Origin: Gammaproteobacteria bacterium
Lineage (GTDB): Bacteria; Pseudomonadota; Gammaproteobacteria; SpSt-1174
Assembly (NCBI GenBank): GCA_037388465.1
Contig: JARRKE010000028.1
Coordinates: 1-44,051 of the forward strand
Reading direction: 5' to 3'
Length of the DNA stretch: 44,051 bases
Below the pieces are notes generated by a model, which saw only the letters and a list, made by a program, of their open reading frames with translations, was not told the origin of the DNA and ran no database searches. The position numbers and the translations under genes are program-made. Within the stretch, counting starts at the first letter, position 1. Each line of letters starts with the position of its first letter. Shown here in pieces: positions 701-38,725 of the stretch.

Positions 701-2281
701 ATGCAAGCCGACCTCAAGCCACTGGAATTCGAAGCCGTTCGTCGCGTCCTCGAGCGTCTCACCAGCACACCCTACGGTGCGGATGCCGCACGCGGCCTCG
801 AACCGGCGCCTTCCATCGATGTCGCGCTGAGCATGCAGCAGGCCGTGAGCACGGCCCGCAGCCTGCTCGATGCCGGCCGCCAGCCGGTCATCGGTCAGTT
901 GCCCGATATCCGCGCCGCGCTGCGCCAGGCCTCATCCCCGGGTGCGACGCTCAATTCGCAGGCCATGTACAACCTGCAGGTGGTGATGCGCGCCGGCGCC
1001 CAGCTCGCCGAGCAGTTGGCGGGCACGGACGCCGGGGCGATCTATCCGGGCAACCTCGACGAGCTCAGGCCGCCCGCCGCGCTGACGGAACTGCTGGATA
1101 ACACGCTGATGGGCGCGGGCACCCTGCGCGACGACGCCAGCCCCGAGCTCAGCGAGCTGTTCGCGCAGCGCGGCACCCTGCGCGAGCAGGTCGAAACGGT
1201 GGTGCGCAAGCGCATGGCCAGCGCCGATATCAAGGACCTGTTCGAGGACCCGAACAAGGTCAGCTGGCACAACGAGCGCGGCGTGATCATGGTCAACTCG
1301 GGCAATGCGGACAAGGTCAAGGGCGTGCGGCGCGGCACCGCCATGGGCGGGCGTGACGTGGTGGTCGAACCCATGGAATCGGTGCCGGCCAACAACCAGC
1401 TCGAAACCGTGGTCGGCAAGATCAGCGCCGAACAGCAGAAGGTGCTGCGCGCCATCACCTCGACCATCCGCGAACACGTGGACGCCCTGCAGAAACTGCT
1501 CAGCGCCATCACCTGGATCGATCTCGCCCTGGCCTGCGGCGAGATGAGCCGGGCCCTGAACGCCCATGCGCCGAAGCTGGTCGACGAGGCGCGCGTGGAA
1601 CTGCGCGACGCCTACCATCCCCTGCTGCTGATGCAGTTCGCCGACGGTTCCGGCCCGCAGCCGGTGCCCTTGTCGATCGAGCTGGACGGCAAGGACAGCA
1701 TTCTGGTCATCACCGGCCCTAACACCGGCGGCAAGACGGTGGCGCTCAAGACCCTGGGGCTGCTGACCGTGATGGCGCATTGCGGGCTGCACATTCCGGC
1801 CGAGCAGGACTGCGTGATCGGTAACTACCGCAAGGTCATCGTCGACGTGGGCGACGCGCAAAGCCTCTTTCATCATCTCTCGACCTTCGCCGGTCACGTC
1901 GAGGTGCTCAAGCGCATCCTGGACGAGGCGGGCGAGGATACCCTGGTGTTGCTGGACGAACTCGGTACCGGCACCGATCCGGAGGAGGGGGCGGCCCTGG
2001 CGATGGCCGTGCTGGACGAGCTGACCCACCGCCGCGTGCAGGGCATCGTCAACACCCACCTCTCGCCGCTCAAGGAGTACGCCGCGGAACGCCCCGGCAT
2101 CCGCAATGCCTCCATGCAGTTCGACCACGAACGCCTGTCGCCCACCTACCGGCTGCTGATCGGCGCCCCGGGCGTTTCGCTGGGGCTGACCATTGCGGAA
2201 AAGAACGGCCTGCCCAAGGACCTGGTCGCCCGCGCCCGCGAGCACCTGGAAACGATCTGCGCCACGGGGCGGTGCGACTGA
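701..2281 (+). CDS. MutS2-like DNA-binding ATPase without a Smr nuclease domain
   Basis: This 526-aa protein belongs to the MutS family and is closest in layout to MutS2, which acts on branched DNA or stalled ribosomes. The N-terminus (LEFEAVRRVLERL, residues about 6-18) is the usual MutS2 start. The Walker A loop GPNTGGKT is at 339-346 and the Walker B/signature region LLDELGTGTDPEEG at about 417-430. The protein stops near ARAREHLE, just after the ATPase domain, so the KOW-like and C-terminal Smr endonuclease domains of full-length MutS2 (usually near 780 aa) are absent. ATG 701 is chosen because the family N-terminus follows at once; the frame is open further upstream but overlaps the preceding gene. 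No strong ribosome site is visible. It could be a naturally short subfamily rather than a truncation. Confidence 0.8.
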   Translation: MQADLKPLEFEAVRRVLERLTSTPYGADAARGLEPAPSIDVALSMQQAVSTARSLLDAGRQPVIGQLPDIRAALRQASSPGATLNSQAMYNLQVVMRAGAQLAEQLAGTDAGAIYPGNLDELRPPAALTELLDNTLMGAGTLRDDASPELSELFAQRGTLREQVETVVRKRMASADIKDLFEDPNKVSWHNERGVIMVNSGNADKVKGVRRGTAMGGRDVVVEPMESVPANNQLETVVGKISAEQQKVLRAITSTIREHVDALQKLLSAITWIDLALACGEMSRALNAHAPKLVDEARVELRDAYHPLLLMQFADGSGPQPVPLSIELDGKDSILVITGPNTGGKTVALKTLGLLTVMAHCGLHIPAEQDCVIGNYRKVIVDVGDAQSLFHHLSTFAGHVEVLKRILDEAGEDTLVLLDELGTGTDPEEGAALAMAVLDELTHRRVQGIVNTHLSPLKEYAAERPGIRNASMQFDHERLSPTYRLLIGAPGVSLGLTIAEKNGLPKDLVARAREHLETICATGRCD

Positions 2282-2293
2282 GCCCGGTAAAAG

Positions 2294-2384
2294 TCACGGT
2301 TTTTCCGTGAAATCCTCGGACGTTCGTATTAAGATGCAAGTTTTTCGCCCGCATCCGGGCGCGCCGTCCTAAACGGCGGTTTTT
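2294..2384 (+). promoter_or_regulatory. Structured ilv leader: three hairpins, the last terminator-like
   Basis: Three perfect 6-bp stems lie between the MutS2-like gene and ilvB: TCACGG/CCGTGA with a T5 loop (2294-2310), CGCCCG/CGGGCG (2346-2361), and CGCCGT/ACGGCG followed by GTTTTT (2362-2384). The last has the form of an intrinsic terminator. It may end the upstream transcript, or act as an attenuator if the ilv promoter lies upstream of it, as in other branched-chain amino acid operons. No clear leader peptide was found. Confidence 0.5.
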
Positions 2385-2498
2385 CATAAGGTTATTGCCT
2401 GCGGCCTGTTGGGAAAACAGATTCTTCCGACAGGCTGTTTCAATATTTTAAAAGTAACGGCCCTGTCCGCGGGGCCACTCTGGGCGGAGTATCGGAAC

Positions 2499-4193
2499 GT
2501 GCAACTGACAGGTGCAGAAATCTTCGTGCGCGCGCTGCATGACGAGGGCGTGGATATCGTCTTCGGTTATCCCGGCGGCGCGGTGCTGTTCATCTACGAT
2601 GAGCTGTACAAGCAGGATAAGGTCACCCACGTACTGGTACGCCACGAGCAGGGCGCCGTGCACGCGGCCGAGGGCTACGCCAAGTCCTCCGGCAGGACCG
2701 GCGTTGCCCTGGTGACCTCCGGCCCCGGCGCCACCAACGCCATTACCGGCATCGCCGACGCCTACATGGACTCCGTGCCGCTGGTGGTGTTCACCGGCCA
2801 GGTGCCCACGTCCGCCATCGGCAGCGACGCCTTCCAGGAAACCGATTCGGTGGGCATCACCCGTCCGATCGTGAAGCACAACTTCCTGGTGAAGGACGTC
2901 AAGGACCTCGCCGAGACCATCAAGAAGGCCTTTTATCTCGCCGGCACCGGCCGCCCCGGTCCCGTGGTGGTCGACATCCCCAAGGACGTCACCGCGCAGA
3001 AGGCCGACTACAAATATCCCAAGTCGATCCGCATGCGTTCCTACAAGCCGACGGTGAAGGGGCACAGCGGGCAGATCAACAAGGCGCTGGATCTGATCCT
3101 GGGCGCCAAAAAGCCGGTGCTTTACACCGGCGGCGGCGTGCTGCTGTCCGGTGCCGCGCGCGAGCTGACCGGTTTCGCCCGTACGCTCGGCTACCCCGTG
3201 ACCAATACCCTGATGGGGCTGGGCGGCTATCCTGGTTCGGACAAGCAGTTCCTGGGCATGCTCGGCATGCACGGCACCTACGAGGCCAACATGGCCATGC
3301 ACCACGCCGACGTGGTCATCGCGGTCGGTGCGCGGTTCGACGACCGGGTGGTCGGCAATATCGAGAAGTTCTGTCCCGACGCCAAGATCGTGCACATCGA
3401 CATCGATCCGGCCTCCATCTCCAAGACCGTGAAGGTCACGGTGCCCATCGTGGGCGACGTCGGGGCCGTGCTCAAGGACATGAGCGCCCAGATCAAGGCG
3501 CGCAAGGAGAAGCCCGACACCAAGGCACTCAAGGCCTGGTGGGCGCAGATCGACGAATGGCGCGCGATGGACTGCCTGAAGTTCGACCGCGACAGCGACC
3601 TGATCAAGCCGCAGTATGTGGTCGAGACGCTGTACAAACTGACCAAGGGCGACGCCATCGTCACCTCCGACGTCGGTCAGCACCAGATGTGGGCGGCGCA
3701 GTTTTATAAATTCGACAAGCCCAACCGCTGGATCAACTCCGGCGGCCTCGGCACCATGGGCGTGGGCCTGCCGTTCGCCATGGGGGCGCAGATGGCCAAC
3801 CCGGATGCGACGGTCGCCTGCGTGACCGGCGAGGCGAGCATCCAGATGTGCATCCAGGAGCTCTCGACCTGCCTGCAGTATCAGCTGCCGATCAAGATCG
3901 TGAACCTGAACAACCGATACCTGGGCATGGTGCGGCAGTGGCAGGAGTTCTTTTATCAGGGCCGCTACGCCATGTCCTACATGGATGCGCTGCCCGATTT
4001 CGTGAAGCTGGCGGAGGCCTACGGCCACGTCGGCATGCGCATCGAAAAGCCCGCGGACGTCGAGGGAGCGCTCAAGGAGGCGCTCGCCATGAAGGACCGC
4101 CTGGTGTTCATGGACTTCATCACCGATGAAACCGAGAACGTCTATCCGATGGTGCCCGCGGGTGCGGGCCAGAACGAAATGATCCTGGTCTAG
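2499..4193 (+). CDS. ilvB: Acetolactate synthase, large (catalytic) subunit
   Basis: This 564-aa thiamine-diphosphate enzyme condenses two pyruvates, or pyruvate and 2-oxobutyrate, in the first common step of valine, leucine and isoleucine synthesis. Seen: QLTGAEIFVRALHDEGVD at the start, the conserved FGYPGGAVL, the catalytic glutamate in VRHEQGAVHAAEGYA, and the cofactor region ending in NLNNRYLGMVRQWQ. The Mg/ThDP motif that is normally GDGS, or GEGS in some proteobacteria, reads GEAS here (coding about 3829-3840), which is unusual. GTG 2499 is preferred because GGAG lies 8-9 bases upstream and the length matches the family. An in-frame TTG at 2409 would add 30 unconserved residues. ilvN follows after 9 bases, so the two subunits are co-expressed. 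Confidence 0.95.
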   Translation: MQLTGAEIFVRALHDEGVDIVFGYPGGAVLFIYDELYKQDKVTHVLVRHEQGAVHAAEGYAKSSGRTGVALVTSGPGATNAITGIADAYMDSVPLVVFTGQVPTSAIGSDAFQETDSVGITRPIVKHNFLVKDVKDLAETIKKAFYLAGTGRPGPVVVDIPKDVTAQKADYKYPKSIRMRSYKPTVKGHSGQINKALDLILGAKKPVLYTGGGVLLSGAARELTGFARTLGYPVTNTLMGLGGYPGSDKQFLGMLGMHGTYEANMAMHHADVVIAVGARFDDRVVGNIEKFCPDAKIVHIDIDPASISKTVKVTVPIVGDVGAVLKDMSAQIKARKEKPDTKALKAWWAQIDEWRAMDCLKFDRDSDLIKPQYVVETLYKLTKGDAIVTSDVGQHQMWAAQFYKFDKPNRWINSGGLGTMGVGLPFAMGAQMANPDATVACVTGEASIQMCIQELSTCLQYQLPIKIVNLNNRYLGMVRQWQEFFYQGRYAMSYMDALPDFVKLAEAYGHVGMRIEKPADVEGALKEALAMKDRLVFMDFITDETENVYPMVPAGAGQNEMILV

Positions 4194-4765: not shown

Positions 4766-5785
<1,020 letters not shown>

Positions 5786-5801
5786 TCCTGCCCTTGTCCT
5801 G

Positions 5802-5886
5802 CCGGTATCGGGGATCACAGCCCTCGATACCGGCGGCGATCACCGTTTGACGCAAATGCCCGGCTTTAAGCCGGGCATTTGCGTTT
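5802..5886 (+). terminator. Terminator hairpins after ilvC
   Basis: Two hairpins follow the ilvC stop. The first pairs CCGGTATCG-GGG with CCC-T-CGATACCGG (5802-5833). The second is a perfect 16-bp inverted repeat around a single central T (5851-5883), beginning CGCAAATGCCCGGCTT and followed by TTT. The second is a convincing intrinsic terminator for the ilv operon. Confidence 0.8.
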
Positions 5887-5940
5887 CCGGGCCCCGTTTC
5901 TTCCCGGTGAATTTCGTATCGCCGTTCACCGGCGAAATCG

Positions 5941-33242: not shown

Positions 33243-34073
33243 CTATCCCTTCAGTCCGCTGGATGCCACGCCCCGCACGAAGCCGCGTTGGAAGATCAGG
33301 AACAGTGCCAGCACCGGCGCGACCATCATGACGCCGAAGGCCAGTATCTGTCCCCAGTGCAGCGGCGGCAGGGTGAAGAAGGTGGCGATACCCAGCGGCA
33401 GCGGTCGCACCGCCGGCCCGGTGGTCATCAGCAGCGGCCACAGATAAAGGCCCCAGTAGAACAGCAGCGTGACAATGGCCACGCTGGCGAAAACGGGCCT
33501 GGCGTTGGGTACCACCACCGTGAAGAAGGTGCGCAGCGGCCCTGCACCGTCGATGCGGGCGGCTTCCTCCAGTTCGCGCGGCAGGCTCAGGAAGAAGGTA
33601 TAAAAAAGGTAAATCGACAAGGGGTTGGCGACGAAGGGCGCGATCTGCACGCTGAAGTCGTCGCGCCAACCCAGCAGGCTGAGCTGATAAAACAGCGGTA
33701 CCGCGATCGCCTCGAAGGGGATCACCAGGATCGCCAGTACCGCGCCGAGCACCGCGTCGCGTCCCCGCCAGCGCAGGCGGGCGAGCGCATAGCCCGCAAG
33801 GCTGTTGATCAGCAGCCCCAGGCCGACGATGAGGCCGTTGATCAGCAGCGAATTGAGCAGGTAATGCCAGAACGGCGTGCGGGCAAGCACGGCGCGGTAA
33901 TTCTCCAGCGTGATGCCGTCCGGCACCAGGGCGCGCCAGCTGCCCGCTTCGCTCAGCACCCGCGCATCCGGCTTCAGGCTGCCGGCCAGCATGAACAGGA
34001 TCGGGGCCAGGAACACCAGGGCGGCGCCCAGCAGCAGGCCGTAATGAATGATTTTCAGTGCCACACGTCGCAC
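33243..34073 (-). CDS. Sugar ABC transporter permease (MalG/UgpE type)
   Basis: This 276-aa inner-membrane protein has six hydrophobic segments and the cytoplasmic EAA loop EEAARIDGAGPLRTFFTVVVPNARP, here from LEEAARIDGAGP, which docks on the ATPase. GTG 34073 is the likely start: it has GGGAGGTG upstream, lies two bases after the preceding stop, and gives the usual family length. Longer in-frame readings overlap the other permease gene. Confidence 0.9.
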   Translation of the reverse strand: MRRVALKIIHYGLLLGAALVFLAPILFMLAGSLKPDARVLSEAGSWRALVPDGITLENYRAVLARTPFWHYLLNSLLINGLIVGLGLLINSLAGYALARLRWRGRDAVLGAVLAILVIPFEAIAVPLFYQLSLLGWRDDFSVQIAPFVANPLSIYLFYTFFLSLPRELEEAARIDGAGPLRTFFTVVVPNARPVFASVAIVTLLFYWGLYLWPLLMTTGPAVRPLPLGIATFFTLPPLHWGQILAFGVMMVAPVLALFLIFQRGFVRGVASSGLKG

Positions 34074-34075
34074 GC

Positions 34076-34993
34076 TCAGCGCACCTCCCGTTCGGTGCGC
34101 AGCAACCTGCGCTGGATCAGCGTGATGGCCAGCACGATGACGAAAAACACCACGGCCATCGCCGCGCCGCGCCCGGCCTGGGCGCGGTCGAAGGCGCTTT
34201 GCACGGCCTGATAGACCACGGTGGTGGTGGCATCGAGCGGACCGCCCTGCGTCATGATACGGACCTGGTCGAAGACCCGGAACGACAGGATCGACGTCAC
34301 GATGACGACGAAGATCAGCGGATTGCGCAGACCGGGCAGGGTGATGTGCAGGAAGCGTTGCCACGGCCCCGCACCGTCCACGGCGGCCGCCTCGTAGCGC
34401 TCGCGGGGAATCTCCTGTAGCCCGGCCAGCAGGATCACCATCTGGAAACCCGCGCCCTGCCAGATGGAGGTGAGCATGATCGCGGGCAGGGCCAGATGGG
34501 GATCATGCAGAAAATCGCGCGGCTGCCAGTGATGCAGGGTCAGGGCGCCGAGCACGCCGTTGAGCAGGCCGTTCGGTCCTGGCGCGTAAATGAGTATCCA
34601 CACCACCGCGACCAGCGACATGGGAAACACCACCGGCATGAAGAACAGGGTGCGGAAAACGGCCACACCGCGCAGCGGCCGGTTCAGCGCCAGCGCCAGC
34701 CCGAGCGCCAGCAACGTCTGCACGGGGACGACGCCCAGCGCGAACAACGCGTTGTTGATCAGGGCGCGTTGAAACGAAGCATCCTGCAGCAGGCGCAGAT
34801 ACTGTTCGAAGCCGACGAACTGGGCGCCCAGCGGCGAGCCCATGCGCAGGTGGGTGAGCGACATGCCGAGCGCGAGCACGAAAGGCGCTACGACGAACAC
34901 GGTCAGCCCCGCCAGCGCCGGCAGCATCATCAGCCAGCCCGTGGCGTTGTCCGTCAGGGCGGTGCGCGCGGATTTGCCGGGTGTGCGTTTCAT
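34076..34993 (-). CDS. Sugar ABC transporter permease (MalF/UgpA type)
   Basis: This 305-aa inner-membrane protein has six membrane segments, starting GWLMMLPALAGLTVFVVAPF, and the EAA loop RYEAAAVDGAGPWQRFLHITLP. It pairs with the MalG-type permease to form the import channel. ATG 34993 overlaps the stop of the binding-protein gene (ATGA), which shows translational coupling. Confidence 0.92.
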   Translation of the reverse strand: MKRTPGKSARTALTDNATGWLMMLPALAGLTVFVVAPFVLALGMSLTHLRMGSPLGAQFVGFEQYLRLLQDASFQRALINNALFALGVVPVQTLLALGLALALNRPLRGVAVFRTLFFMPVVFPMSLVAVVWILIYAPGPNGLLNGVLGALTLHHWQPRDFLHDPHLALPAIMLTSIWQGAGFQMVILLAGLQEIPRERYEAAAVDGAGPWQRFLHITLPGLRNPLIFVVIVTSILSFRVFDQVRIMTQGGPLDATTTVVYQAVQSAFDRAQAGRGAAMAVVFFVIVLAITLIQRRLLRTEREVR

Positions 34994-36324
34994 CCCCGCA
35001 CGGCCTCGCGGTTCGGATAGCCCTTGTTGTCGGCGATGTCCCGGTCGATCAGGGTCGCCGCCCGGTGCAGCGTTTCCGGCACCTTGGCCCCATCGCGTAC
35101 GGCATGGAACGCCTGCTGGAAGGCGGAGGTGATCGCGGGATAGGCCGGCGTGCGCGGCCGGGGCAGGGCATAGCCCTCGGCCAGTTGTTCGATGTAGAGC
35201 CGCAGCGGCCCGTCCTGGGCATACAGCGGCGAGCGGGCGACGGCGCTGCGGGTGGCGGGCGGTGCGCCGTTGGCTCCGCTCATGGCGAGCACATTGCTCG
35301 TTTGCAGCAGGTAGCGCAGAAATTCGGCGGCGGCCTCGGGGTGGCGGCAACCCGCGCTGATGCCCCAGGTCCAGGAACCTTCACCGGTACGGGCGCCTTC
35401 GCCGAAGTCCGGCAGGGGCAGCAGGGCGAGGTCCCTGCCGACGGCCTGTCGGTAGCGCGGATATTCCCAGTGGCCGACCCAGGACAGCGCTACGCGCCCG
35501 GTGGTGAAGGCGGCGTCATCGAGGTTGGGGTCCACCCGCCCGGCGGCGGTCCAGCGCTGGATATGACGCATGGCGGCGGTCGATTTTGATCCGTCGAGCA
35601 CGCCCCCGGCATGCGGCGGCCGGGTGTCGCGGCTGACCAGCCCGCCGCCGGCCGACCACAGGGCAGGCGCAAAGCCGTACGTGAACCACTCGCCGCGGTA
35701 ATTGAGCTTGAGGTCCAGCGGTGGCCGATTGCCGGTCGCTGCGGCGAGGCGGGCGAGCAGGTCTTCGAAGTGTTCCACCGTCCAGGCATCCCCGGGCGAG
35801 GTCGGCAGGCTTGCGCCGATGGCCGTCAGGCGGTCGCGGCGCGCGAACAGTCCGAGGCCCGAGTCGTACTGGCCGACCGCGTACAGGCGTTTGTTGTAGG
35901 TGCCCTGGGAGAGAATGGAAGGCAGCAGGTCCTCGCGCAGCGTTGCCGGCAGCAGTTCGTCCAGCGGTTGCAGCTGGCCCATCCAGGCATAGTCCGCGGT
36001 GTAGGGGCCGTCGAATTCGAATACGTCCGGGAGTTGTCCGGCGAGGGCCGCGGCCTGGAGCTGGCCGTTGTAGGCGCCTTCAGGCAGCAGCGTGAGATGC
36101 ACGGCGAAGCGGCGCCGGCCGGCGTTGAAGCTGTCCGCCAGGCGGACGAGCGTGCGGCGCTCGCCGACCTGACCGGCGTGAGCCCATACCTCGAGTGTCG
36201 GTTTGCGTGCGGACAGCTTGGAGGTGCCGCTGCGGCAGCCGCCGAGCATCGCCGCCAGTGGCAGCGCTGCCAGACTGCCCAGCATCGCACGCCTGGACAG
36301 GGAGACAGGCGGTTCGCGTCGCAT
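34990..36324 (-). CDS. Sugar ABC transporter substrate-binding lipoprotein
   Basis: This 444-aa extracellular solute-binding protein (family 1 type) begins with SRRAMLGSLAALPLAAMLGGC: a lipobox (LGGC, Cys30) with a preceding double arginine, so it is a lipoprotein that may use the Tat route. The mature part has TLEVWAHAGQ, then DSFNAGRRR and LPDVFEFDGPYTADYAW, typical of carbohydrate binders. The ligand is not known; sugars or compatible solutes such as glucosylglycerol or trehalose are candidates. It is the first gene of the four-gene transport operon. Confidence 0.88.
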   Translation of the reverse strand: MRREPPVSLSRRAMLGSLAALPLAAMLGGCRSGTSKLSARKPTLEVWAHAGQVGERRTLVRLADSFNAGRRRFAVHLTLLPEGAYNGQLQAAALAGQLPDVFEFDGPYTADYAWMGQLQPLDELLPATLREDLLPSILSQGTYNKRLYAVGQYDSGLGLFARRDRLTAIGASLPTSPGDAWTVEHFEDLLARLAAATGNRPPLDLKLNYRGEWFTYGFAPALWSAGGGLVSRDTRPPHAGGVLDGSKSTAAMRHIQRWTAAGRVDPNLDDAAFTTGRVALSWVGHWEYPRYRQAVGRDLALLPLPDFGEGARTGEGSWTWGISAGCRHPEAAAEFLRYLLQTSNVLAMSGANGAPPATRSAVARSPLYAQDGPLRLYIEQLAEGYALPRPRTPAYPAITSAFQQAFHAVRDGAKVPETLHRAATLIDRDIADNKGYPNREAVRG

Positions 36325-36421: not shown

Positions 36422-37552
36422 CTAGCCACGGTATTTGGCGAGATAACGGCCCTCGAACAGACGCTTGGCCCAGTGCATGAGGCGCATCGGCGGCAGGATC
36501 AGGGCCCGTTGTTCGTTGCGGAACACCAGTATGCCCTTGGCCAGCGTGTCCACGATGCAGACCAGTTCCACCTTGAAGCGGTGGCGCGGCGGCCTGCCGT
36601 CCAGTTCTTCGCACAGGTTGGCGGCGGCGGCCTCGGCCTGAAGATCTGCCATGTGCGCCTGCTTGGGCATCCAGTCGGGGCCCGGGAAGCTGCCGGCGTC
36701 GCCCGCCACGTAGACGCGTTCGAAGCCGTCCACGCGCGCCATGCGGTCGGCCTGGATCATGCCACCCGGCGACAGAGGCAGGCCGCTGTCCGCCACCCAG
36801 TCCGGGCCGGTCATGCCGGGCATGAACAGGATGAGATCGGCCGGTATTTCGTCGCCCTCGGTCACCACCCTGTCGGCTTCGAAGCGCACGGGTTTGTGTC
36901 CGAGATGGGTTTCGATGCCGCGCTTTTTCATTTCCGCCAGCAACCCGTCGACGGCGCGTTCGCCGAGTCGTGCACCCGGCCGCGGGGCGGGATTGAAGAA
37001 CACCAGTTTGAACCGCTCGCGCCGGCCTTCGCGCCGCAGCTGCGTATCCAGGCCGAACATCAGCTCGAACATGGGTCCGCCGCGCATGGCCGAGGGCTCA
37101 TTCGGGTTGCTGGCGAACCCCAGGGCGATGGTGCCGCCCTGCATGTCCTGCAGCCGTTCACGGATGCGCTGCGCCGCCTGCGTGCCTTCGCACAACGTGA
37201 TCGCATGTTCGATGCCGGGCAGTTTTTTGATGAACCGGCCGCCGCTGGCGATGATCAGGCCATCGTTGGTCACCTCGCCTTGATCGGTGACCACCGTGCG
37301 CCCGCCGTCATGGATGCCGGTGACGCGGCCGGCGTGAAATTGTATGCGCTGGCGTGTCAGGAACCCCTGCAGGTCTATATGCAGGTCTTCCGGACGGCGC
37401 AGGCCGGACGGAATCCAGATCAGGCTGGGCAGGTAGACCAGCTCGGCTCGTGGTGCGACGAGCGTGATTTCCGCATCCGGCAGCCGTTTGCGAAGGCTTC
37501 TGGCGGCGGTGAGAGCGGCGAAACCCGCACCGATAACGGTGATCTTATGCAT
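36422..37552 (-). CDS. Sulfide:quinone oxidoreductase-like FAD flavoprotein
   Basis: This 376-aa protein has a FAD-binding start ITVIGAGFAALTAARSL (4-20), a central GGRFIKKLPGIEH and a late FAD segment VYVAGDAGSFPG, as in SQR and flavocytochrome c flavoproteins. Cys121 and a cysteine near the C-terminal side (ELVCIVD) are candidates for the redox pair. The C-terminal amphipathic LPPMRLMHWAKRLFEGRYLAKY is like the membrane-association tail of SQRs. It is the last gene of a three-gene operon with a persulfide dioxygenase, which supports sulfide oxidation. The SQR type is not resolved. ATG 37552 directly precedes the FAD motif. Confidence 0.8.
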   Translation of the reverse strand: MHKITVIGAGFAALTAARSLRKRLPDAEITLVAPRAELVYLPSLIWIPSGLRRPEDLHIDLQGFLTRQRIQFHAGRVTGIHDGGRTVVTDQGEVTNDGLIIASGGRFIKKLPGIEHAITLCEGTQAAQRIRERLQDMQGGTIALGFASNPNEPSAMRGGPMFELMFGLDTQLRREGRRERFKLVFFNPAPRPGARLGERAVDGLLAEMKKRGIETHLGHKPVRFEADRVVTEGDEIPADLILFMPGMTGPDWVADSGLPLSPGGMIQADRMARVDGFERVYVAGDAGSFPGPDWMPKQAHMADLQAEAAAANLCEELDGRPPRHRFKVELVCIVDTLAKGILVFRNEQRALILPPMRLMHWAKRLFEGRYLAKYRG

Positions 37553-37559
37553 GATGACA

Positions 37560-38042
37560 TCAGCCTCTGTAGTCTCGGGGAACGGGGCTGGGATTCGCGG
37601 CGGCCGCGTAGCCGCCGCGCACGAAGGCATCCACGGTATCGCCATGGGCATGAATCAACTTGACCACCTCCGGGTCTCTGCTGGTTTCCGTGACCTCCAC
37701 ACCGTTCGGCAGCAGGGTGACCTGCATGTCGATTTTGTCCCGGTGACGAAACAGCTCGGCGTAGAGCCGGTCCCAGCGCCGCAGGGGAAAGTTTTCCTCC
37801 AGCCGCGCATGCATTGCCGGCACGTGGTCATGCAGCAGCGCGACGACCTGCGGGTCCGGCGACGTGGTGGTGGCGCGGATGCCGTTGTCCAGTTTCACCA
37901 CCCGGCGCCTTAAGGCTTCGTGGCTGTCGAGCAATTGGTGAAAGACGTCCCTGTCATGTTGGTGCCGCTCGCGGCGTGCGGGGTCCGGGCCACCGCAACC
38001 GCCACGCCTCCTGTGCTGCAGCGGGGCGTGTATCGTACTCAT
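37560..38042 (-). CDS. Internally duplicated 160-aa protein in the sulfide oxidation operon
   Basis: I do not recognise a family. The protein consists of two copies of a 60-residue unit, about 31-90 and 91-150, in exact register. Each has an N-terminal helix (DVFHQLLDSHEALRRRV; LYAELFRHRDKIDMQV), a two-strand part ending in NGIRATTTSPDP or NGVEVTETSRDP, and a helix beginning QVVALLHDHV or EVVKLIHAHG. His71/His73 match His131/His133, so a metal- or haem-binding role is possible (inference). The N-terminal 30 residues are basic and His/Arg-rich; it has one cysteine. ATG 38042 overlaps the stop of the dioxygenase gene (ATGA). It stands between a persulfide dioxygenase and an SQR-like protein. 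Confidence 0.75.
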   Translation of the reverse strand: MSTIHAPLQHRRRGGCGGPDPARRERHQHDRDVFHQLLDSHEALRRRVVKLDNGIRATTTSPDPQVVALLHDHVPAMHARLEENFPLRRWDRLYAELFRHRDKIDMQVTLLPNGVEVTETSRDPEVVKLIHAHGDTVDAFVRGGYAAAANPSPVPRDYRG

Positions 38043-38725
38043 GCGGCCAGTCCGCAATGCACGTTCGCCGGCAGGGCCTCGTCGATCCTGCGCGGGTAGG
38101 GCAGATCCAGGCCGTTCATGATGGCGACGAACTCGTCCTTGGCTTTGCCGGCCAGACGCGGGTTGATCGCCTTTTCCTGGACGATGCTGGAAACGCGGCG
38201 GCCTTCGTAGTCATGCCCCGGATAAACCAGCGTCTCGTCCGGGAAGGCGAACAGTTTCTGGATGCTGTCGTACAGGGTTTCCGCATTACCCTGCTGGAAG
38301 TCCGTGCGCCCGCAGGCGTTGATCAGCAGGGTGTCGCCGGTGAATAGGCGGTCGCGCCAGTGATAGCTGGTGCAGCCGTCGGTATGACCGGGCGTGGCGA
38401 TGGCCGTGATGACTTCGTTACCGAAGCTTAGGGCGTCGCCCTGACGGATGCCGATGTCGGCGCAATCCACACCCGCGGCGTCGCCGACCACCGTCTCGCA
38501 GCCGGTGGCCTCGCGCATCAGACCGGAACCGGTGACGTGGTCCGCATGGACGTGGGTCTCCAGGCTGTAACGCAGGGTGACGCCCAGCTCGCGCAACACG
38601 GACATGTCGCGTTCGTGGCGTTCCCGTACCGGGTCGATGATGACCGCATCCCGGGTGTCGGCGTCCGCGATGATATAGGTATAGGTCGAGCTTTCGGGAT
38701 CGAACAACTGTCTGAAAATCGCCAT
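38039..38725 (-). CDS. Persulfide dioxygenase (ETHE1-like, metallo-beta-lactamase fold)
   Basis: This 228-aa non-haem iron enzyme oxidises glutathione persulfide to sulfite. The ETHE1-type metal motifs are present: THVHADHVTG, GHTDGC, GDTLLINACGRTDFQQGN and PGHDYEGR. The RTDFQQGNAETLYDS segment is characteristic of the persulfide dioxygenase group and separates it from glyoxalase II. AGGAGG precedes the start. It is the first gene of the operon with the duplicated protein and the SQR-like flavoprotein, which would supply the persulfide. Confidence 0.92.
   Translation of the reverse strand: MAIFRQLFDPESSTYTYIIADADTRDAVIIDPVRERHERDMSVLRELGVTLRYSLETHVHADHVTGSGLMREATGCETVVGDAAGVDCADIGIRQGDALSFGNEVITAIATPGHTDGCTSYHWRDRLFTGDTLLINACGRTDFQQGNAETLYDSIQKLFAFPDETLVYPGHDYEGRRVSSIVQEKAINPRLAGKAKDEFVAIMNGLDLPYPRRIDEALPANVHCGLAA

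Follow-up and report, generated by a model that had tools for sequence, protein, structure and literature searches.

A duplicated protein encoded between PDO and SQR genes: a possible soft-metal accessory of sulfide oxidation

A gene located between those for a persulfide dioxygenase (PDO) and an SQR-like oxidoreductase encodes a 160-residue protein, given the working label REP, that consists of an old tandem duplication and carries an invariant set of two histidines and a methionine. The family to which it belongs comprises a cytoplasmic clade, recurrently linked to sulfide oxidation, and a secreted clade. As a tentative explanation, held at less than even confidence, we propose that REP is a cytoplasmic accessory of the SQR-PDO pathway that binds a soft, Cu(I)-like metal through a His2Met site, the metal being suggested by the residues and by the relatives of the protein.

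Gene, duplication and conserved residues

The window (the whole stretch of DNA analysed, 44,051 nucleotides) carries the three genes on the reverse strand. The first (38039..38725) encodes an ETHE1/PDO-like dioxygenase of the metallo-beta-lactamase fold, with Pfam/NCBIfam matches to Lactamase_B (2.3e-17) and to the dioxygenase part of Blh (1.5e-33). The second (37560..38042) is the REP gene, a real open reading frame, and the third (36422..37552) encodes an SQR-like FAD oxidoreductase that matches Pyr_redox_2 (3.8e-23) and for which the top NCBIfam model is type III SQR, at 1.5e-25 and far under the cut-off of that model. Such an operon is defined by a metallo-beta-lactamase-fold PDO with an SQR-type FAD protein as its neighbour, and this pairing is present; the window proteins are 53-75% (PDO, against the other trio loci) and 58-72% (SQR, against the other complete trio loci) identical to their counterparts. 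The stop-start overlap that had been described for this gene exists at the PDO/REP junction, where a shared ATGA holds the start of REP and the stop of PDO, but not at the REP/SQR junction, where the ATG of SQR lies 7 nt past the REP stop. No sigma-70-like promoter was found between positions 36100 and 39000, and the three terminator-like sites in that interval are all on the other strand, a number at chance level. Starting 97 nt downstream of SQR, on the same strand, is a predicted sugar-type ABC transporter (33243-36324; a binding protein and two permeases) with no evident link to sulfur.

Residues 31-90 (37773..37952, reverse strand) and 91-150 (37593..37772, reverse strand) of REP align without gaps. 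The top ungapped self-match has an offset of exactly 60 and places residues 33-73 on 93-133 (BLOSUM62 score 79); the observed scores were matched by none of 300 whole-protein shuffles and none of 20,000 shuffles of the repeats. The doubling is seen in all 30 aligned members, for each of which no more than 3 of 1000 shuffles score as high as the ungapped repeats, and the profiles of repeats 1 and 2 match each other with an hhalign probability of 98.7 (E 2.7e-16). The first-pass annotation had described an exact 60-residue tandem duplication: the tandem arrangement, the offset and the absence of gaps stand, but the repeats are identical at only 16 of 60 residues (27%) and their DNA at 70 of 180 positions, and the duplication is therefore old and diverged rather than exact. 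Similarly, the motif NG-x4-T-x-[ST]-x-DP, thought to occur in both repeats, is found as such in repeat 1. Repeat 2 has E119 in place of the T (NGVEVTETSRDP), which leaves NG-x3-T-x-T-S-x-DP as the form common to both.

The AlphaFold (AF2) model of REP, made from an input alignment of just eight sequences (pLDDT 85.7, pTM 0.78), predicts with good confidence a doubled helix-hairpin-helix fold, with helix 21-39, strands 45-51 and 54-60 and helix 64-83 for repeat 1, and helix 92-99, strands 105-111 and 114-120 and helix 124-143 for repeat 2. Foldseek returned no match to this model at E < 0.001, and the top VIA-align match had a Z of 5.6 (rmsd 3.1 A, 77 residues aligned); neither search gave a convincing fold, and weak resemblances to Pcc1 and the C-terminal domain of the arginine repressor were set aside. 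Scans of Pfam and NCBIfam, with 17 members in each library, gave no match near a curated cut-off, and PDB sequence searches with REP and with the family profile gave chance-level matches only. We rejected as chance an NCBIfam match to SAMP1 (E 0.003, in one member, over 27 residues and far under the cut-off) as well as Pfam matches to Flg_hook and TilS. The family appears to be undescribed in the libraries and literature searched.

Conservation was counted in an alignment of 30 members of both clades, the window protein included. All 30 share R46, G54, T59, H73, M77, F98, H133 and G144, and G114, T120, S121 and D123 are near-invariant. H73 (codon 37824..37826) and H133 (37644..37646) occupy equivalent positions of repeats 1 and 2, each as residue 10 of 20 in the modelled helices 64-83 and 124-143, respectively; M77 (37812..37814) stands one helical turn past H73, and the codon of R46 is at 37905..37907 (all reverse strand). 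H41 is kept in 24 of the 30. Paired histidines had been proposed at 71/73 and 131/133. While H73 and H133 hold throughout, H71 is found in 14 of the 30 members and H131 in 5, most of the others having Q at the latter position, and the proposed pairs therefore shrink to one histidine per repeat. There is no conserved cysteine column among the 30 members, 18 of which lack cysteine altogether.

Distribution and genome context

The close relatives of REP (49-58% over the full alignment) are mostly from sulfur oxidisers, their hosts including Acidithiobacillus, Sulfuriferula, a Chromatiales MAG and the firmicute Sulfoacidibacillus. In the 30-member tree two well-supported halves are seen, one with 15 members without an evident signal peptide, among them window REP, and one with 15 members that mostly have an N-terminal hydrophobic leader (the secreted clade). 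The family is sparse: it occurs in 9 of the 369 genomes sampled from the class and in 6 of the 398 sampled from the phylum (the window genome is counted in both), and no match to it was found in the phage collection. Horizontal transfer of the gene is likely, since REP is absent from the two sampled genomes of the window's own family and the Sulfoacidibacillus copy groups with those of Acidithiobacillus and Sulfuriferula (support 89/88).

The order PDO-REP-SQR of the window recurs in loci L003, L004, L005, L007, L028, L029 and L030, the hosts being Acidithiobacillus (L003-L005), Sulfuriferula and three further genomes from the class to which the window belongs, and several unrelated sulfur oxidisers thus share the arrangement; locus L006 holds REP and SQR. 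In the class sample, REP is present in 7 of 59 genomes with this SQR subtype and in 2 of 310 without it (Fisher p 5e-5) and, in the other direction, this SQR is present in 7 of the 9 REP genomes and in 52 of the 360 others. In the same sample, a PDO gene lies within 3 kb on either side of SQR for all four SQR genes with REP beside them and for none of the 53 without (p 2.5e-6), a comparison that is limited to this SQR subtype, includes some contigs ending before 3 kb, and takes no account of kinship, two of the four REP-SQR loci being from one family. Elsewhere, PDO is also found paired with SQR of other types, and no REP-like gene accompanies those pairs.

Both enzymes have been studied in Acidithiobacillus. 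For A. ferrooxidans ATCC 23270, GSH-dependent SDO activity was reported for AFE_0269 (PMC6335251) and functional SQR behaviour on overexpression for AFE_0267 (PMC12016491); for A. caldus, the locus tags are A5904_0790 (sdo2) and A5904_0792 (the sqr-like gene; PMC5584763). In both published strains the tags of sdo and sqr thus leave room for exactly one gene in between (AFE_0268 and A5904_0791), and from this numbering together with the Acidithiobacillus loci L003-L005 we infer that these are REP genes; our literature search found no paper naming either of them. The role in a sulfide operon suggested by the first-pass annotation is thus supported by the recurrent gene order, by the finding that in the class sample SQR lies within 3 kb of PDO only where REP is present, and by the activity of the A. 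ferrooxidans enzymes.

Linkage to sulfur genes and conservation of the histidines, on which that suggestion had been staked, hold only in part, as the members in L001, L002, L031 and L032 lie beside neither PDO nor SQR and one histidine of each proposed pair is variable. The L032 member is the nearest relative of window REP in the tree; convergent to it is a gene (4805-5890) that, judged from sequence only, encodes a MauG-like di-haem peroxidase. In the Chromatiales MAG (L001, 3520-4959), genes for a SLAC1-type channel and a DUF6858 protein directly precede the REP member. In two genera of one family, a REP subfamily is paired with the thioredoxin TrxC on the same strand (L034, 4299-5249; L035, 5230-6202).

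Members of the secreted clade have tails with 7-21% Met, and on plasmids often have metal genes as neighbours. These are merA and an ArsR-rhodanese and MBL pair in L012 and L013 (for L012, an ArsR-rhodanese fusion and a PDO-like MBL protein), CsoR and two copper/heavy-metal P-type ATPases in L078, ars genes in L015 and L016, and cadmium (cad) or P-type ATPase genes in L009, L011, L014, L018 and L077; for L010 and L017 the metal link is not obvious. Control stretches of 144 kb from three of the same plasmids contain few metal genes, in one cluster on one of the three stretches. A second, more remote link to sulfide oxidation comes from L041, a chromosomal secreted member of alphaproteobacterial type, whose cluster also encodes a sulfurtransferase-SQR fusion, a Blh-type PDO, and bacterioferritin-like and DUF6691 proteins. 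The fusion (1358-3091) joins a BLH-phosphatase/TIGR01244 sulfurtransferase domain to a type III SQR-like domain and adjoins the separate Blh-type dioxygenase, the Blh and SQR domains thus being re-shuffled. Our literature search found no discussion of DUF6858 or DUF6691. The chromosomal secreted members L033, L042 and L044-L046 show no such metal or sulfur context; L033 has a cytochrome b561-like gene nearby, an assignment again made by sequence alone. Linkage to copper-homeostasis genes (CsoR and two P-type ATPases) was seen in the secreted clade and not in the window clade, which is linked to sulfur genes. The literature search found no paper that connects SQR and persulfide to copper proteins rich in Met.

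A candidate metal site and its alternatives

In the mechanism that we tentatively favour, REP, which arose when a helix-hairpin-helix unit of some 60 residues was duplicated long ago, would serve as the accessory of a three-gene module in which SQR makes sulfane sulfur and PDO oxidises glutathione persulfide to sulfite. H73 and H133, at the helix midpoints, could be joined by M77, and possibly by R46/H41, in a single non-Cys site near the pseudo-twofold axis; symmetry suggests that H73, M77 and H133 may face each other, and the invariant set is compatible with one site built by two symmetry-related helices. This candidate site may bind a soft metal ion, of which Cu(I) is placed first because of the combination of a methionine with two histidines, the Met-rich secreted cousins and the copper and mercury neighbours of the latter. 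REP might then keep thiophilic metal off the persulfide pool and both enzymes, or pass the metal on, and the secreted relatives would perform the same task outside the membrane, in metal-resistance islands. A role in metal or haem binding, as first suggested, is plausible in view of the invariance of the three residues and the Met-rich, metal-linked sister clade. Several observations weigh against the soft-metal proposal. Window REP has no Met-rich tail (2.4% Met); plasmids are generally rich in metal genes, and a metal cluster was present on one control stretch out of three as well; the chromosomal members L031, L042 and L044-L046 lie beside neither metal nor sulfur genes; and the three residues would also suit haem b, or could be conserved for structural reasons with no ligand at all.

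The first-pass annotation had also considered a persulfide carrier between the two enzymes. In its covalent form this is unlikely and was rejected, because no cysteine is conserved in the 30 members and REP thus lacks the residue that holds sulfane sulfur in rhodanese, TusA and DsrE. In a non-covalent version, REP would bind glutathione persulfide or polysulfide, or act on it as a catalyst, and so speed the transfer from SQR to PDO, with H73, H133, R46 and T59 forming an anion or acid-base pocket and no metal site. This would agree with the location of the gene, with the invariance of an arginine and a threonine alongside the histidines, with the TrxC genes adjoining in L034 and L035, and with the ArsR-rhodanese fusion and PDO-like MBL protein near the L012 member. 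We nevertheless regard it as unlikely, as the protein differs from those carriers in its lack of a conserved cysteine and the secreted clade occurs in a metal context.

REP could alternatively be an iron-delivery or iron-site protein that loads or protects the mononuclear 2-His-1-carboxylate Fe(II) of PDO, which would account for its constant position between this SQR subtype and PDO where those two adjoin. The iron site reported for the ETHE1-type SDO of A. caldus (PMC6335251) and the bacterioferritin-like gene of the L041 cluster count in favour of such a function. His2Met would, however, be an unusual set for iron(II), and the secreted relatives beside copper and mercury genes fit poorly. 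Since, in addition, most PDO genes work without a REP-like protein, we hold an iron function to be rather unlikely.

The same three invariant residues could provide His/Met or His/His ligation in a haem b protein for sulfide sensing, sulfide handling or electron transfer, and the predicted di-haem peroxidase and cytochrome b561-like neighbours in L032 and L033 point in this direction. As these neighbours are single cases, as the fold searches, with their weak scores, matched no haem-protein fold, and as the copper and mercury context of the secreted clade would be left unexplained, this seems quite improbable. Finally, a small scaffold joining SQR and PDO, with conserved residues that are structural, would agree with the perfect linkage to PDO-SQR pairing in the class sample but is very improbable, given that His-Met-His is invariant also in members without an adjoining PDO or SQR and that secreted members are unable to touch a cytoplasmic PDO.

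Significance and comparison with known systems

In Acidithiobacillus, a genus employed for bioleaching, SQR and PDO are regarded as the complete route from sulfide to sulfite, and reviews leave the role of SDO there unclear. REP offers a directly testable missing part, present wherever this SQR and PDO adjoin in our sample and unmentioned in the literature found. If its candidate site binds copper, metal tolerance would be tied to sulfide oxidation in the same habitats. A more far-reaching proposal, which we consider doubtful, is that this new family, with its cytoplasmic and secreted forms, provides sulfide oxidation with a third component of its own, one that links persulfide chemistry with the handling of soft metals and in which two symmetry-related helices would build one His-Met-His site needed for SQR-PDO function in metal-rich, acidic sulfidic habitats.

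Proteins of the CusF, CopK and PcoA type are Met/His-rich periplasmic copper proteins. The sister clade resembles them in being secreted, with Met-rich tails, and in lying beside CsoR and copper P-type ATPases; no sequence relation was found, however, the REP core is a doubled alpha-beta-beta-alpha domain, and window REP is neither Met-rich nor equipped with a signal peptide. The L041 member, with its Blh-type dioxygenase, sulfurtransferase-SQR fusion and DUF6691 (YeeE-half-like) protein, recalls the bigR/blh/pmpAB-type sulfide detoxification clusters, whereas the window operon has an ETHE1-type PDO, a cytoplasmic member and no pmp transporter. In the Acidithiobacillus SQR-PDO operons (AFE_0269 SDO/AFE_0267 SQR; A. 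caldus sdo2 A5904_0790/sqr-like A5904_0792), the gene order seen in L003-L005 is that of the window, the difference being that the literature treats just the two enzymes. REP extends the known SQR-PDO module to a variant with three genes and does not make a new kind of system.
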